DNA of 16,201 nt from Phlegmacium glaucopus (lineage: Eukaryota; Basidiomycota; Agaricomycetes; Agaricales; Cortinariaceae): the NCBI GenBank assembly GCA_015039465.1, contig MU130375.1, forward strand, positions 77,863 through 94,063, read 5' to 3'. The notes under the pieces were generated by a model. The model did not search any database. It had not been told where the DNA came from and worked only from the letters and a program-made list of their open reading frames with translations. Within the stretch, counting starts at the first letter, position 1. Every line of letters starts with the position of its first letter. Below, one piece after another: positions 1,557 to 16,201 of the stretch. The translations under genes were made by a program, and so were the position numbers.

Positions 1557-4500
1557 ACCTCTTCAGTGCTGCCGAACTTTTGTCCACAACAGCTTTTACC
1601 ACAGCAGCCAACCCGATGCTGCTGTCATCGCCGTACTCGTCATCACTGTCATCGCCGTACTCGTCATCACTGCCCTCGTCAATGATGTCCTCTGGTACGA
1701 TTTTGTTTGAAGCAGGTAAGTCTGAGGCGGATGTTTCTGAGTCTACTAAAAGATCATTCCAGAACACAGGATCATCGACTTTCAGCTCTCTCAGTTTCTT
1801 TCGAGCATCAAAGGATGTGAGACTTTCATAGGATAGATTCCACCCACGTACACAACACATTTCGAAAGACTTTGGGATTGTAGGTCAACTGCAGGAATGC
1901 CAGGTAGCTCATTGTCTCGTACCTTTTTAACCAAAGCCTGAGAGTTGACCGCGTTGTAGGCGTTCCAAAGCCAGGTAACGCTCTGATCACGGACAGTCTT
2001 GATTCGTTTGTCAACTGCCAACACTGGTTCGTTTTTTTCAATCCACTCAAGCATGTCCTGGACAATAAACTCATGATAGGATTGCTTTATCGAGTGTTTA
2101 AATGGGCGCTGCATCCCTACATCGCATGGTTGATGAAGTCCAGTGCAACCTCCAGGTATGAAGTCCAATATAATATTGTCATGGTTGTCTGACATCCATT
2201 TGCGAAACTCCTTTGATCGATGTACAGACCAAACATTGATCTGCCAGAGTGCTTTCTGTGTTGGTGGAAGGTTGAGAAGGGCCCGTTTGCGGGCAAAGTA
2301 GGGTGCAAGAATGTTATCGACGAAGCTGTGCATGGTTGCCATGTTTGACCAGTATGTCACTGTTCCTGAATGTTCAAGAAGCATTCCTGCACTCATGACT
2401 TCATTGTAGTACCCTGCGGTTTTAGATGGACAAGATGCTGTTGATAGTCCTGCGTATATTGCCTGGAGTGGGAGGAGAGTTCCGTCATTTGCAACAGAAA
2501 CCATCACAGTAAATGCATGTTTTTCATCTCCTCCTACAAGTGAAACTTGCTTTGCACCTATCGGGGCATAGGTCATCTTGTCACCTGGAGCGTAGACCAC
2601 CTGGGTTTGATCTGAATTGACATAGAGGACAGAGAGTATGTCATATTCTTTGATGCTGTATGCCTTCCGTAAGAACAATTTCTCACATTTCTCTTCCCAA
2701 TCCTCTGGAATTTTTTGTGCTGCTCATGTTGCCTTGCGTTCTGACCAGTTCAACTGGTGCCTCATCCATTTGCGAACAAAGTTATCGGATGCTCTGAAGG
2801 TTGACCCGTCTTTATAAGGTGTGTTCAGGATTTCCAGTGCTCTGGATATTATGAGCACTAACATGACACCTCAGACAGTGAGGACAGTCATGGCAGCCCC
2901 TGCTTCACGCATTTTAAGAAGGCGGTCTTTGACCTCTTGGACGACATCGGGGTGACGAGACTGAATTGGCCCTTAGTCAGGTTTGGAACACTTTTACAAA
3001 CTGATTCACATACCAAAACTCCATGCTGACCTCCTTTATTATGTCCAGTATCGTTTCCACAGTCAATCCTTCGCAAAACAGCATTGGTCCACTTTGGCTT
3101 ATTCCCAGAGCGATCAATCCAAGATTTCACGGTTGTGCGGCTGAGGCCCTCAAAATTGACAGGGTTAATTCTCTTCACAGCATCAACAATCTCTGATGCC
3201 CCCATTTTCCACCCAACCTGCTTAACAGCGACCTCAATCTGTGACCACAGAAAGGGCGAGAACCAGTTATAATATTTTGCTTGTTGTACCAGTACCTTGG
3301 CCTTCTGGCCTTGGGGTTTTTTATGTTCACTCTTAAATTTTCGCTTGATAGCTCGCCCAGGCCGTGACAGTTTGGCAGTCGATGACCTGACTTTATGCTT
3401 GGTGTCGGTAAGTGTGGCTTTGATAATCTGTATATAAAACTCATGAAAAGAACCAACGTATAACAGATTTAACACTTACTTGGCGCTTCCTCCCCCCTGG
3501 ACTGCGAAGTCCAAGCTTTATCTCAGCTCTTTTATTTGTCTCCCATTGCTTCTGCTTCCAAAGGCGCGCTCGTTCTTTTTTTGTTTCTGCTTGTTGAAGC
3601 CTTGCAGCTCTGAGCTTGTATTGATCATCTTGCATCATTGTTTCATATTGGTCTGTCTCTTGTGCATGGTATTCCTCATTTTGCTCCTTTGTCCCTTGGG
3701 AAAAAAATTGAAACAGGCCTTTCTTTGAACCCTTGGTAAGTCCCTGTCGGATTGCTGATGTGATGGTTGGCTTAGATGTTGATTCCACAGCACTCGCCAA
3801 TATTGCTCCGGATTTGTTGGGCAGGGCTGGGCTCAGAAGAGAAGTGGGGTTTGGAGGCGTGGTCAATTTGAGAGTGAGGTGCGCTGGTTCGTCATCATCC
3901 ATTGAGTCTTCTCCTGACCCTTGGTCCGATTCATAAGATTCTTCATCCATCTCCCAATCACTGCTGGCACCACCTTCCAGCTGTTCATTTTCCACCCCAT
4001 CATTTGTTTCGGTGTCGGAGTCCATGTGCTCTGAGTCAACATCTTCACTTTCTGCCTCGCTTGGTAAGGTCTAAGATGTATTCACCAAAATTATTATATA
4101 TTCCAGGAGATAATGAGTATACTTTACCTCTGCCTGAGTATGCCTTCGGATAACCTTCAGCAAGACATCTAATCGACCTTCCACCACATTTCCTGCATTG
4201 AGTAGCTTTTCTTTCCCATTTGAAAAGAAAACTGTTAATGCATTCCAAGCTAGTAAACAACATGAAAAGAATCCCTTTGGATGGTGACTGGGAGTGATTG
4301 GTGTGTAAATTGTTTGCCGCTATGAAAGTATGTCCACCACTCTAACACCTTCTTCACAGTCTCTGGTATCTGCTGCTCAAGGGAGTCTCCATACCATATT
4401 TCACCCATCCAAAAGTCAAGAACAACCGCCACCCAATGGTTCCGGTTGAGATTTACCAGAAAGCCAAACTGATCTCGCCTTCCCGTTTCAAGACCATTTC

Positions 4501-5223
4501 CGATATGGTGATAAAGTCTGAAGGAGCCATCAGTGGTGTAGCGTTCAGGTGCCTCGTAAGCCAGTTTGATCTTCTCATAAAACCAAGTGCTCCCAATCTC
4601 GACAGTAAACTGACACTCGAGTTGTACCTTAGTCTTTAGGAGATCAAGCATCTGTCCTGCATGCTCTCCCTTCAACCAGGCGTTGGATGTGTATGCTGTA
4701 AGTATCTTGAGGTCGTCTGTACCATTGGAGCTGAAACCACACAGGTTGTGTCCCCATTGAAGAACTGCTAATGCGTTGAAAACCTGATCGACAACTTGGG
4801 CAGACTCTTTTTTTCCCTTTGCGGCCCACTTTTGAGACAGCTCATGCAAATTTTGCTCTGCCCTCGCCCTCGCTCCCTGCACCAGCTGAACCTCAAACAT
4901 GTTGTCCCAGTATGTGACAATCCACAGGGGGTATGTTCCGCTTGAATTGGTGTGAACTGGCTTGATTGAACGGTTTCCAGCACTAGTTGCATGAAGTAGG
5001 TGCTTCTTCAATGCATCAACAACAGACTGTGGAGGTGAAGGAAGTGCTTGGATATTTGTAATATCATTTATGTTTGGAGGTTGGGTATCAAAGAAACTGT
5101 TGTTGGGAAGTCTCGGGATGGCAATAGGAGAGGAAGGTGAAATTGAAGGAGCTCAAGAACTGTCAGCTTGGGGCTTGGAAATATTTGTGCGTAGAACTCT
5201 TGGGGAGCAATGCTGAGGTCCAT
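1450..5223 (-). pseudogene. Ulp1-like protease / DDE_1 transposase fusion gene, decayed
   Basis: Read on the minus strand from ATG at 5223. (1) A Pro/Ser-rich lead. (2) A Ulp1/C48-like cysteine protease: His in NHW (4438-4436), Asp in YGDS (4387-4385), Cys at 4262-4260 just past a one-base loss. (3) Intron 4127-4071 (57 nt, phase 0). (4) An acidic, then basic linker. (5) Intron 3479-3428 (52 nt, phase 0). (6) A helix-turn-helix region (about 3280-3050). (7) A DDE_1 transposase core: first Asp in NSDQTQ (2612-2610), VWSVHRS box at about 2230, third Asp in QPCDVG (2123-2121). Breaks: apparent one-base losses near 5150, 4264, 2970 and 1875; TGA stops at 2873-2871 and 2726-2724; the second catalytic Asp before VWSVHRS is Asn (2237-2235). 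The C-terminal frame ends inside the foldback repeat. Known: DDE_1 cuts and joins transposon ends; Ulp1 enzymes remove SUMO-like tags. Inferred: one transposon-encoded gene, now dead. Confidence 0.85.
1622..1669 (-). repeat. Two 24-bp tandem repeats in the acidic C-terminus
   Basis: The unit tgtcatcgccgtactcgtca plus tcac occurs twice, head to tail, and encodes on the minus strand an Asp/Glu-rich DDEYGDDS motif twice. It lies in the acidic tail of the transposase frame, a typical place for replication-slippage expansion. Confidence 0.85.
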
Positions 5224-5426: not shown

Positions 5427-6497
5427 TTGATTTCATACAGTAGTAGCAATTTGGGCATGATTGGTAACGCCGTGGTTGACATCTGGGAGGCAGAGGAAGT
5501 CCATCCTATTCTAAAATATGAAGACGACCTCAAAATCTTCCACACTCCATCAACTACAGGCACATTTTCGGATGGCAATATCTATTATGACTACGACTGC
5601 CCAGAGGCTTTACATCATATTGAGCTGTTAGGTGTCCCTTGGCACAAAGAGAAAGGGGACAACAGCTTTAAATTCATAACAACATTCATCAGTTTCCTGT
5701 GGGACATACCCCAGAAACTAGTTAGCCTTCCTGAAGTAAAACAACTTAAGTTTCATGAGCGGGTCCGCCGGTTTCTCAACAACTTCTCGATTTACAACCA
5801 TCCATGCCAGCTTGTTGATGTTGAAAAGATTCATGGCTCATTGTGTCACGTCGCATTCGTATATGTGAACGGCCACTCTCGTCTCCCCTCACTCTCCAAT
5901 TTCGCCGCATCCTTCCAGTGCAAAGACAGGTACTTCAGGACCAGATACCCACCTTGGGCCATGATCAAAGACCTAGAATGGTGGCTTGAGGCGCTATCAG
6001 TTCCCTGCATCACCCGTCAACTTCATCCTCGGGGTACTCTGCAGGATCTGGGGCTCTACATAGACGCCTCCACATCATGGGGTATTGGTATTGTCATGGG
6101 AGAGTCTTGGGCTGCCTTCCACCTGTCCCCCACTTGGAAGATTCCAGGCTGTGACATCTGTTGGCTGGAGACAGTTGCGGTTGAGCTTCTGGTTTATTTC
6201 CTTGAACAGAAGGGTCTCTGTGATTGTCGGCTGCTCATCCATTCCAACAACCAAGGCACAATTGGGGCCATGGCCAAGGGCCGCAGCTCGAATACCCACA
6301 TTAATCTTTCTGTCCGCTGCACATATGTGGTCCTCATGGACTTATTCATCACACCTAACATCAACTACATTGAGTCTGAAGCTAACCCAGCCGATCCTAT
6401 CTCACATGGAGAACCAGGATTAGCTGGGAAGCAGGTTTTTCCTATCTTTACGCTCCCAGTTGAGCTCATTGATTGCTTCCTTGATGTCCAGTCTTGA
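5427..6497 (+). pseudogene. Reverse transcriptase (C-terminal part) and RNase H of the DIRS-like element
   Basis: About 356 codons without an ATG at the left, so the protein is 5'-truncated. The polymerase active-site box reads KYEDDL (Asp-Asp at 5523-5528), a variant of the usual Y-x-D-D. After thumb and connection regions comes an RNase H fold: first Asp in LYIDAS (about 6060), Glu in WLETVAVEL (about 6165-6190), and the third position in the motif usually written SDN, which here is Ser-Asn-Asn (6246-6248). The terminal ADP-I-S box has His (SHG) where family members usually have Arg. Both changes fit G to A at a CpG. Known role: copying element RNA into DNA and removing the RNA strand. With the fingers missing and an RNase H acid lost it should be inactive. 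Confidence 0.85.
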
Positions 6498-8005
6498 ACG
6501 AGCTTTCCCATCGGCGGCCCGTGCTGTCGAGAGGTCAGTGGGTGAGAGAAGAACCTCGGTTCCTATTTTACCGCGCCCCACTTGTCCTCGAAACTCATTT
6601 CACCTGTATAAATCTCACCCTGCATCATCCTCCAGCATTCCTGAAATTATGTTACCCTTTTCTACCCCACTCTATGCATCATCCAAATCAGAAACCACAT
6701 CCACAGCCTTACACTTAATCAGTGCCAATACTCCTCGTCCCATACAACCTCACAAACCTCAGAGCGGCCGATCCATCATACCTAGCCATCTACACCCCCA
6801 CGTCGCAGCCGCTGACCGTATCTTCTTATGGGATACTCCTTTTGGAGTCCGTCATAGAGCACAACTCACCCAGACACTTCCTTCTCCCCTCGTTGAATCA
6901 GCAATGATGGCTATCAGAGGCGGCTATGCCCCAAACACCAGATCCACCTATGCTGCAGGCCTGAAACGGTTCACACAATTTTGTGATAAGTGGCACATAG
7001 CAGAGGAGGATTGCATGCCTGCTCAATACCCTCTTCTTTGTGCTTTTATTGCCAAACATAAAGGCTTAGTGGCAGGTGGTACCATCCATTCCTGGATGTC
7101 GGGCCTACGCAGCTGGCACATTGTGCATCATGCCCCATGGTGTGGTGATGACAACTGGGTCAAATTAGCTCATGTCTCTGCAAATAAGGAGGGGACCAAC
7201 CACAGAATGGCTCTCAGGGCACCCATGTCTGTCAAGCACCTGCTAGCTCTTCGCCACATCATTAACCTGTCAGACTCATTTCATGCAGCCATCTGGGCAG
7301 CCGCTTTATGCATGTTCTTGGGCTGCTGACGGCTTGGTGAGACCATCATCGCCATTGCGGCTGCTTTCAATGAGAAGTACCATGTACTTCGTTCCGTCAC
7401 GTAGGTCATACCACTCATTATGGTCACCCTATCATCTAACATTCATTAGCATTGCCTTTCGCACATTGCGGGATGGGACTTGCTCCGCAAGTTTCCCGAT
7501 TCCTTGGACAAAGTCCACAAGAGAGGTTGGCGCTTCTGTGGTCCTTACAGCACATGCCAACTCGCTGATATGTCCTGTCGCCACTCTTGAGAACCATCTC
7601 GCTGTCAACTCATCAATTCCTTCATCATCAGCTCTCTTTGCATACATGACACCTCAGGGCCAACCTAGAAACTTGCTCAAGCATACATTCCTCAACTTCG
7701 TCACAGGTGTATGGTCAGCTGCCAAGCTTACCCACATTCTCGGGCACAGCTTCCATATTGGTGGTGCCGTGGAGTTGCTCCTTGCTGGGGTACCTCCAGA
7801 AGTTGTTGCTGCCACTGGTGGCTGGACTTCTCTCGCTTTCCTTCTGTACTGGCACCGCATGGAGGATATTCTCCCCATGAGCACTTCAAAAGCATACAAC
7901 AAAGCTCATATCAATACTCTGGCCATCATTTTCAAACAATTCCACATCAACAATAATATTCCTTCCGTACTTATCAACGCATCAGATGGTTCACTTTCAA
8001 TTTAG
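6484..8005 (+). pseudogene. Tyrosine recombinase (phage-integrase fold) of the DIRS-like element, one intron
   Basis: Exon 1 runs 6484-7400, intron 7401-7449 (49 nt, GTAGGT start, CTAAC branch-like site, TTAG end), exon 2 7450-8005; the splice joins a split Thr codon and restores the frame. The N-terminal part (about 6900-7160: RGGYAPNTRSTYAAGLKRF, then a conserved Trp-rich helix) looks like the SAM-like core-binding domain. Box A is G-C-stop-R-L-G-E: the first catalytic Arg is present (7330-7332) but an in-frame TGA sits just before it (7327-7329), fitting CGA to TGA. The HxxR box reads HSFH with Arg replaced by His (7754-7756, fits CGT to CAT). The nucleophile Tyr is kept in LLYWHR (7847-7849). 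Inferred: an inactive integrase relic. Confidence 0.85.
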
Positions 8006-13660: not shown

Positions 13661-15285
13661 ATGAAGCGTATCTTTAGGAAAATTGTCAAGCCCAAGATAT
13701 CGAAACATTCATCTCTGACCATCAACCATGCTCTGGGTTCAAGCTCTGAACCAGCAACTTCGACATCGACCATCAAAACAAGCACCGCCGATCCCATGCC
13801 ATCCGTTCCCGCTAATGCTGCGGCTGCAAGCGCACAAGTTATTCAAGTCGCTGGCATGACTGTGAGCGTTCAGTTTCGCCCATCGCATCCCTTAAGTATT
13901 TAACCATCGTCATCGATCAGGCTGCCCACCTAGTCTCTACTTCGGTCTCCGCTTTGGCGATCAATGAGCAAGATGTAAGCATTCCAATCGCTAGTGTTAC
14001 TGTGAGTGTTCAACTTCGCCCATCGCATCCTTAAGCATTTAACCATCGTCATCGATCAGGCCACCCATAACCTACTCTCTACGTCGGTCCCCACTTGGGC
14101 GATCAATGATCTTGCTCCTGTATGCATTCCGGCCGCTGGGGTTAATGTGAGTGTTCAACCTGGTCTATCATATCGATCACTATTCAATTATCCTCATTGA
14201 TCAGAGTGCCGATGAACTCCAAGTCCCCGCTTCGGTTTCCGCTCTGGCTGTTGCTCCTGTAGCCCATCTGGAAGGAAATTCACCCTCGCCTGAAGCCGCA
14301 ATCCAAGCTAAATTGGGATCCATAGAATCGCAACAAAATCCCTCCGTGAGTTGCTTGCACCATGCATTCTCGACTTTCGCTGATGATGATCAATAGGTTC
14401 AACAACCTGTCTCGGGTCCATTTCCGAATGCGCAAGTTGTATTCATCACCCACAGTACTATTGTGAGTCTTTCTCGTAGGTCGTGTACTTTTGGCAATAA
14501 CAGTACATTTAGAACAATGTCAATAGTCTCTCTGCCAATACCGATGAAGGGCAGATGAAGATCTCTACACCTAAGAAACCCAACTCCAGTCCAATCTTTA
14601 CTGGACGGAAGGATGTACTCAATAAACTTGGGAACATTTTTGTTCAATGTACTACTAGTAGACTGATGTTAAGGCGCTCTTGTCTCCTCTGGGGATTGGG
14701 AGGGATTGGAAAGACCCAAATTTGTCTCAGGTTCATAGAAGAAATGTCTGACAGGTAAGGGTTCTTACTCTGCCATTCACAACACTGGATTCATTTCTTG
14801 ATAGTTTTTCACATGTCTTCTGGGTTGATGCCTCCTCTCAGGAGAGCATGGAAATGTCTCTCAAGGGCATATCTACCCTTCCGGCTGCCCAAGATTCCCA
14901 TGTGGATGGCTCAGTTGAGTCTGTTCTCCAGTGGATATCTTCTCTCAAAGAAGAATGGTTGATTGTGTTTGATAATGCTGATGATCTTCCTGCAGAGACA
15001 GTAGACAAGTTCATTCCCTCATGCAACAGAGGTAATATTCTCATTACTAGCAGAAACCAATTCATGGGAAGGATCATATCATTTGGGAACAAAATTGAGA
15101 TCCATGAAATGGAGGTACCTGATGCAATAGCTCTTCTTCTGAAAGCTAGCTATTTGGATTCATTGCCTGAGCATCTAGAAGCTGCCAAAATGATTGTGAC
15201 TGAACTTGGCTGCATTCCTCTTGCTATTGATCATGCTGGAGCCTATATTGAGGCTGGGAAATGTGATATTGATGAATATCTGAGG
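13661..15285 (+). CDS. NLR (STAND) protein, NB-ARC NTPase; seven exons, coding continues into the reversed block
   Basis: Exons 13661-13861, 13921-14001, 14060-14146, 14205-14345, 14397-14462, 14513-14754, 14805-15285; all six introns are 50-60 nt with GT(G/A)AG starts and AG ends, and the joined frame has no stop (433 codons). Residues 1-190 are Ser/Thr/Ala/Pro-rich after a basic start (MKRIFRKIVKPK) and match no effector domain I know. NB-ARC: P-loop GLGGIGKT (residues 253-260, 14693-14716), Walker B LIVFDNADD (about 325-333), NILITSRN (about 350-357), GLPL-like LGCIPLAIDHAGA (about 407-419). These ATP-switch proteins act in fungi in non-self recognition and regulated cell death (family knowledge; role here inferred). 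After DEYLR at 15285 the forward frame turns to nonsense; the true continuation is the block 16201 to 15286 read backwards, giving about 738 codons with the gene still unfinished. The forward stop at 15547-15549 is therefore not real. Confidence 0.92.
13862..14204 (+). repeat. Tandem intron-exon duplication in the NLR N-terminal region
   Basis: Three successive introns (13862-13920, 14002-14059, 14147-14204) are near copies: gtgagYgttca, then cgcccatcgcatcc in the first two, ending in atcgatcag or attgatcag. The small exons after each are also related (STSVSALAIN, STSVPTWAIN, PASVSALAVA). The repeating unit is about 140-145 bases, one intron plus one phase-0 exon of 27-29 codons, so copies can be added or lost without breaking the frame. 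Confidence 0.9.
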
Positions 15286-15572
15286 ACGAACGATCTACAC
15301 TGTATGACAACTCCCACAGACCTACAAGACGTGGTTCGTCGAAGAAGGAGTACAGGTATTGAACTTGGAGGTCGACGAGACGGAGTAAGGTGGAAGGGAC
15401 TAGGGACATACACGTACGATCTAGTCGGTATGATCACTCCCATATACCTACAAGACGTGGTTCGACGAAGAAGGAGTACAGGTATTGAACTCGGACGTCG
15501 ACGAGACGTAAGAAGGTCAGAGGTAAGAGTTTGTAATGATCACTTTTAAAGTAGGTAAATAGTAGTATCATG
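15286..15572. repeat. 126-base tandem repeats = tetratricopeptide repeats seen backwards
   Basis: The word cctacaagacgtggttcg begins at 15321 and again at 15447, exactly 126 bases apart, and both copies run on through gaagaaggagtacaggtatt. 126 bases is 42 codons, the unit length of kinesin-light-chain-type TPRs. Read backwards uncomplemented, the copies give (K/L)LGAEHP(D/Y)TL and AEQL(E/Q)(V/A)QVMDMRKK. Read forwards they give only an Arg-rich nonsense repeat. Confidence 0.93.
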
Positions 15573-16201
15573 ACGAGTTGTAGAGGATAGACGGAAGATA
15601 CATTGAGTAACCGGAATTATACACCTTTTTAGTTGGCAACGTCTCGTATTAGGACTGAAGGTTTAGAGGTACCTTAACGTGTCCTGTTCTAATACGAAGG
15701 GTAGAGTGTGTAAGAAACGACGAGTCTAAAACTGTAAGAGAGGGCTGAGGTCATCACGTGGTCTCCTACTTGTCTTTTGTAAAATCTATTAACAGGAGAA
15801 AAGTAGTTACTCTTACTCTCTTCCTGTGATTAGGGAACAGGTTTCTCCTTCAGTAGGGTTACTGGTAGTAACAGGTTCGGTTCGTCTCATATTAGGTCTT
15901 TTCACTGACGAACTCCATTGAAAAGTCGATACAGTGACAGTTATCGTATAAAGTACCGGAGAAGTCGTCGTCTAGACTTATATAGAAATCTTTATAACGA
16001 TACTACTATCTTTCGTGTATAAACTTCATAGTCCTAACGTCGGACCCGACGAACACGTAGAGGTGGTCACCTTACTGGTGATCGGGAGAAAAGTTAAAGA
16101 AACTTTCTTTCTAGGGTTCAGGGTATGTGACAGACTAATATTGACCTACGGGGACACTTACATCGTAGACTGTATTCTTGGACTGCTACGTAACTCTTAA
16201 C
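15286..16201. other. Block written in reverse without complement: remainder of the NLR gene
   Basis: Reading the bases from 16201 down to 15286 as they stand (no complementing) gives 305 stop-free codons in the frame left open at 15285. The start (QFSMHRQVLMSDATF) joins directly to DEYLR. Then come VYGTWDLSFKEIEKRA (about 16138-16091), QAAQAAILIL, a winged-helix-like region, SVHPLVHYWSR (about 15775-15743), and two KLC/TPR-type repeats (GRWNEAEQLEVQVMDMRKKL). This is the usual order NB-ARC, ARC2/winged helix, TPR in fungal NLRs. Neither the plus strand nor its reverse complement gives any of this. The joint is exact: no base is missing or extra between 15285 and 16201, and the block ends on the last base of the window. 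Not a natural inversion, which would also swap strands. Confidence 0.96.

Follow-up and report, generated by a model that had tools for sequence, protein, structure and literature searches.

The last 916 bases of the window, by which we mean the whole 16,201-nucleotide stretch of Phlegmacium glaucopus DNA analysed here (C141:77863-94063, in a genome of 60.5 Mb and 259 contigs), are very probably the product of an assembly error, a reading to which we assign a probability of about 0.93. The next 916 bases of a gene appear there in reverse order without having been complemented, most likely as the extension of a contig end that was only half-reverse-complemented. This reading is derived from the mirroring itself, from its exact in-frame start at position 15,286, from its end at a run of N, from the similar anatomy found elsewhere in the genome and from the presence of other types of genes among the mirrored sequences. 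The artefact is systematic in the P. glaucopus genome, and there is no biological novelty in it. The coordinates of the window features and of the mirrored pieces are collected in Table 1.

Table 1. Features of the joint at the end of the window and mirrored pieces of the same gene family along the genome.
Feature	Sequence	Positions	Strand	Remarks
P-loop-like motif LLWGLGGIGKT	window	14684..14716	+	predicted NTPase (NB-ARC-like) part; frame-1 translation, normal orientation
Normal-orientation coding stretch of the gene	window	14803..15285	+	open frame; ends ...DIDEYLR at the joint
Mirrored block	window	15286..16201	.	916 bases, reversed but uncomplemented; reads naturally 16201 -> 15286, 305 codons; adjoins N run
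Final base before N run	window	16201..16201	.	N starts at C141:94064
Mirrored piece	L010	2355-4815		adjoins N or A run
Mirrored piece	L010	7176-7898		adjoins N or A run
Mirrored piece	L011	4202-5930		adjoins N or A run
Mirrored piece	L012	2972 to about 7414		adjoins N or A run
Mirrored piece	L013	2681-2953		adjoins N or A run
Mirrored piece	L042	1028-1501		adjoins N or A run
Mirrored piece	L055	1068-1738		adjoins N run across the gap of the window
Mirrored piece	L056	1049-2131		adjoins N or A run
Mirrored piece	L057	585-1942		adjoins 26-A run
Mirrored piece	L058	295-1407		adjoins N or A run
Mirrored piece	L059	415-1953		adjoins N or A run

Translation of the block in 12 readings (forward, reverse complement, reversed and complement, in three frames each) left a single open one, the reversed frame 0, with 305 codons and no stops; the other 11 contained from 11 to 28 stops each. 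The block as written showed observed/expected ratios of 1.18 for CpG and 0.07 for GpC, and its counterpart in the normal paralogue L015 (C141:61000-69000) ratios of 0.08 and 1.09, respectively. Depletion of CpG in the natural counterpart and of GpC in the block as written is what is expected of a mirrored string. The reversal without complementing that the first-pass annotation had described is thus confirmed to the base by the translations, the paralogue alignment and the CpG/GpC ratios, as is the 305-codon frame that opens when the block is read from 3' to 5' without complementing. Its statement that neither real strand carries this protein also holds, as all the forward and reverse-complement frames contain stops.

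The protein obtained from the reversed reading matched Pfam TPR_10 (7.8e-22) and TPR_12 (2.3e-16), with the TPRs located at the end of the natural reading; DUF7779 reached 25 bits, under its 27-bit cut-off. TPR_10 was also matched by L015 (1.4e-136). In the alignment with this paralogue, the normal part of the window reaches as far as reference base 1872 and the reversed block takes over at 1873, with 93.3% identity over 916 columns; with the second normal paralogue, L014, the corresponding bases are 1890 and 1891 and the identity 91.6%. The in-frame join at 15,285 with no base lost, claimed by the same annotation, is therefore reproduced by a paralogue that continues across the joint. The similarity of the reversed-read protein to TPR families, on which that annotation had made its reading depend, was found as well, with paralogues aligned through the joint, and no normal-orientation family match to the real strands was detected beyond 15,285 in the comparison with L014 and L015.

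In the genome, 36 other places match the coding stretch that precedes the joint, from query bases 1-36 to query bases 484-486, and then stop, and one further place matches query bases 3-303 of the same search (best 40 of 243 candidates). A search with the normal paralogue as query gave 40 normal places spanning at least 831 of the 913 query bases, its own place included (best 40 of 276 candidates). The gene is putatively NB-ARC-like with TPRs, an assignment supported by the TPR matches, by the motif LLWGLGGIGKT, recognised by eye and which we take to be a P-loop, and by the annotation of PF00931 (NB-ARC) in some homologues; no match to Pfam NB-ARC was found on the stretches scanned directly (the block, window pieces and L015). 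Behind the artefact, we predict an ordinary NB-ARC-like/TPR gene with a normal continuation. A search of a phage collection returned no match.

An ordinary inversion of the chromosome, or a mirror repeat arisen by chance, might be considered, the family being repetitive and inversions common. We consider it virtually impossible: an inversion would give the reverse complement, yet the frames in that orientation hold 14-20 stops, and a chance mirror repeat cannot yield 93% identity over 916 columns.

A run of at least 3,837 N begins immediately after the end of the window. N appear again at C141:104200-105266, followed by 671 mirrored bases (those of L055) and then by normal sequence. We infer that the N from C141:94064 onward and those up to C141:105266 form one gap, with C141:97901-104199 lying between. 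Both edges of the N run beside the window, the window on one side and L055 on the other, are mirrored. The N runs might in principle be withheld sequence and no assembly gaps, a possibility that does not touch the 25-A spacers described below.

The mirrored block is not unique, as the genome holds others. Further mirrored copies of the block as written were found at two places in C209, in C151 and in C171, with 89-93% identity (best 40 of 243 candidates). Twelve mirrored pieces of the gene family were examined, with sizes from 273 bases to 4.4 kb, and all 12 adjoin either N or 25 consecutive A (in L057, 26). L042 came from the search of spacers; the eleven others are the window itself and pieces picked by mirror homology, L055 also for its position across the N run of the window. 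At least three further mirror-like places, around 44 kb in C230, 699 kb in C164 and 224 kb in C129, are left out of this count. For L012, the reach to the spacer or gap rests partly on composition: family homology covers positions 2972-4965, a mirror match to the interior locus L047 covers 5564-6871 (93.9% over 1,324 columns), and the remainder was assigned by composition. In addition, L024 mirrors L019 with 99.4% identity over 695 columns. No mirror pair (at least 150 columns, E <= 1e-15) was detected between any two of L014, L015 and L046-L051, a small sample. Apart from the assigned tails, positions 1-386 of L028 are the complement, not the reverse complement, of positions 2639-3027 of the same locus at 86% identity.

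The mirrored tails contain, wholly or for the most part, open frames of 834, 615, 558 and 305 codons, and the mirrored blocks diverge by about 7-16% from the paralogues L014 and L015. Because the long frames stay open despite this divergence, the sequences must have evolved in normal orientation. This bears on the idea that the chromosome itself carries the blocks, through parallel-strand copying or 3'-5' synthesis, which we regard as extremely improbable. The blocks are many and differ from each other, as one stray file edit would not explain, yet 12 of the 12 examined end at N runs or artificial spacers and their long frames are open without decay; moreover, we know of no polymerase or recombination route for reversal without complementing. 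A single file slip was also considered and is ruled out, since several loci are mirrored. An error of file handling or assembly, favoured over real DNA in the first-pass annotation, is supported by the gap and spacer boundaries and by the other mirrored loci.

The three spacers first encountered consisted of exactly 25 A in the plus strand. Genome-wide, runs of exactly 25 A numbered 157 in the plus strand and a single one in the minus strand, and those of exactly 24 A, none and one, respectively; when every match to 25 A was counted, including each register of longer runs, the figures were 827 plus and 194 minus. Which strand a record is deposited in is biologically arbitrary and a natural repeat would be blind to it, so this bias shows the 25-A runs to be placeholders written into the sequence; they could be masked or counted as gaps. 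At L036, open normal frames of 500 codons in the minus strand flank both sides of a 25-A spacer, and a mirrored flank is thus absent from some spacers.

The flanks of the spacers were also analysed by composition, comparing the normal with the reversed reading under an order-4 Markov model trained on 197 kb minus the locus under test. Known mirrored blocks scored from -11 to -17 bits per 300 bases in five of six cases, and -5.5 in the 273-base piece; the means of eight interior or normal loci ranged from +1.8 to +9.8 bits per 300 bases, these control scores being noisy, with single 300-base windows down to -12.5 in L046, which contains N, and -9.1 in L051, which does not. Four N-free interior loci showed no reversed-like segment above 11.4 bits. 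We used the first 30 of the 158 sites with exactly 25 A (L016-L045), which provided 60 flanks. Fifteen of these flanks, at 14 of the 30 sites (9 left and 6 right), exceeded the 99th percentile of 560 control anchors, and 13 of the 60 exceeded the maximum of those anchors, all taken from the four N-free interior loci. With an earlier control set of 840 anchors from six loci, 8 of the 60 flanks passed; two of these loci, L046 and L049, contain N runs beside which they give high scores, and their removal led to the 560 anchors and the 15 of 60. The other 45 flanks, which fell short of the 99% threshold, could be normal; they could also be mirrored and too short or signal-poor, as exemplified by the confirmed 273-base tail of L013, which reached 5.7 bits, under the threshold of 8.0.

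Four starts of mirrored readings, of 70 residues each, were compared with protein families. One matched RVT_2 (3e-20), the copia-type reverse transcriptase, another matched ankyrin repeats (7.4e-12), and two matched no family. The mirrored copia flank, searched as written, gave 12 further matches with 68-93% identity, one of which, at C116:119476, sits 47 bases beyond the spacer C116:119403-119429. The finding of RVT_2 and ankyrin repeats in mirrored flanks rules out a process confined to the NB-ARC-like/TPR family.

Mirrored sequence appears also to have reached the protein record. A nonsense ORF from a mirrored array (L010:3539-4546, minus strand) gave one match with E <= 0.001 when 7,986 candidates out of 5.8 billion proteins were scored, the hypothetical protein BYT27DRAFT_7265694 of P. 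glaucopus (also called Cortinarius glaucopus, and placed by the NCBI taxonomy in the Cortinariaceae, Agaricales), of 254 residues, with 72% identity over 47% of the query. A normal exon of 277 residues on C49 matches another hypothetical protein of P. glaucopus, BYT27DRAFT_7250161, with 100% identity over 99% of the query. About 200 residues of BYT27DRAFT_7265694 match mirrored-frame translations, and residues 201-235 match normal TPRs; no place in the genome matched it at full identity, the best piece showing 92% (best 149 of 2,669 candidates). Its match to mirrored frames implies that such mirrored DNA is part of the deposited assembly, where it was annotated as a gene. A purposeful alteration of the window, also contemplated in the first-pass annotation and suggested by the exact coincidence between the end of the block and that of the window, is very unlikely in view of the match of BYT27DRAFT_7265694, of the mirrored tails at gaps and spacers on other contigs, which carry their own divergence, and of the window stopping just where the N run of the contig begins.

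The assembly error that we favour could have arisen as follows. The original contig would have ended at position 15,285, and long-read patching, likely with PBJelly, would have appended the tail. Two half-operations would yield identical letters: a correctly oriented extension may have been reversed and left uncomplemented, or an extension taken from the opposite strand may have been complemented and left unreversed. A tail mirrored in this way would be unable to overlap its true neighbour, and the gap would tend to stay open, or would be flagged as overfilled and receive a minimal spacer of 25 bases, later presumably changed to A's. At one spacer in L010, the normal part stops at reference base 1689 and the mirrored tail beyond it starts, in natural order, at base 1629. 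About 60 bases are present on both sides of that spacer; with the tail in natural order, this overlap could have been detected.

The paper likely to be that of the genome project (PMC7550596) names, in its available parts, ALLPATHS-LG followed by patching with PBJelly for hybrid assemblies in general, and PBJelly is the likely patching program for P. glaucopus too. According to the available parts of its description (PMC3504050), PBJelly treats 25 or more N as a gap, writes flank extensions into gaps that it cannot close, and reports an overfilled gap when two extensions fail to overlap; extension or overfilling by this program is also described in portions of PMC4580222, PMC7757076 and PMC9635638, and overfilling was inferred in PMC8848313, as far as its available text goes. 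It is possible, if somewhat unlikely, that an error of the same kind, which overlaps with the reading just proposed, was made by another program, for example the gap patching of the assembler or an in-house finishing script that wrote left-hand walking extensions in walking order. The letters themselves are silent on the program, and a left extension in walking order would be the same string; moreover, neither a 25-base spacer of PBJelly nor a reason for its A letters was found in the available text of PMC3504050, PMC4580222, PMC7757076 and PMC9635638, and a keyword search of the open-access literature returned no paper on such a spacer. Against another program stand the mention of PBJelly in the likely project paper and the fit of its 25-base gap minimum, flank extensions and overfilled gaps, as given in the available parts of PMC3504050, to the anatomy found here. 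No printed report of such a bug or error class was found in a search of the open-access literature at the level of phrases and keywords.

In the published P. glaucopus genome, some gene tails beside gaps make sense on neither strand, and gene models at such tails can be truncated or contain nonsense. The sequences affected include NLR-like genes and a retrotransposon. Should other genomes have been patched in the same way, the error may extend beyond P. glaucopus, and scanning for it is simple. We suggest, tentatively, that mirrored gap edges constitute a systematic class of error, in which half-reverse-complemented extensions from long reads, present in many public hybrid assemblies, hide gene ends and seed nonsense proteins, and which would be detectable in any genome by the comparison of reversed with normal composition together with the strand count of 25-A runs. 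There is nothing new in it as biology; the error class is worth checking in other patched genomes.

Other regions of the window contain features of mobile elements. The minus-strand region 1791-2678 matches the DDE superfamily endonuclease PF03184 (4.4e-07) and likely encodes a transposase; no Pfam match was found for the ORFs at 2888-3475 and 4250-5011 beside it. In the plus strand, three successive ORFs (356, 289 and 240 aa) along 5427-8005 look retroelement-like by eye, with parts resembling reverse transcriptase/RNase H and a tyrosine recombinase, and no Pfam match at 0.001.

Compared with the fungal NB-ARC/TPR (NLR-like) family, the gene shows no unusual trait once the block is read the other way, and the joint is crossed by its normal copies, L014 and L015, whose identity to the block is 92-93%. 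The anatomy of the gap edges resembles the output of PBJelly (English et al. 2012, PMC3504050) in the read-derived sequence at gap-facing ends, in the gap left between them and in the 25-base threshold, and differs from it in that the available parts of that paper describe neither reversal without complementing nor a spacer of A. Misoriented contigs and false inversions are alike in placing correct sequence in the wrong orientation beside a gap; unlike the block described here, which breaks strand direction, they are reverse complements and keep the logic of the strands.
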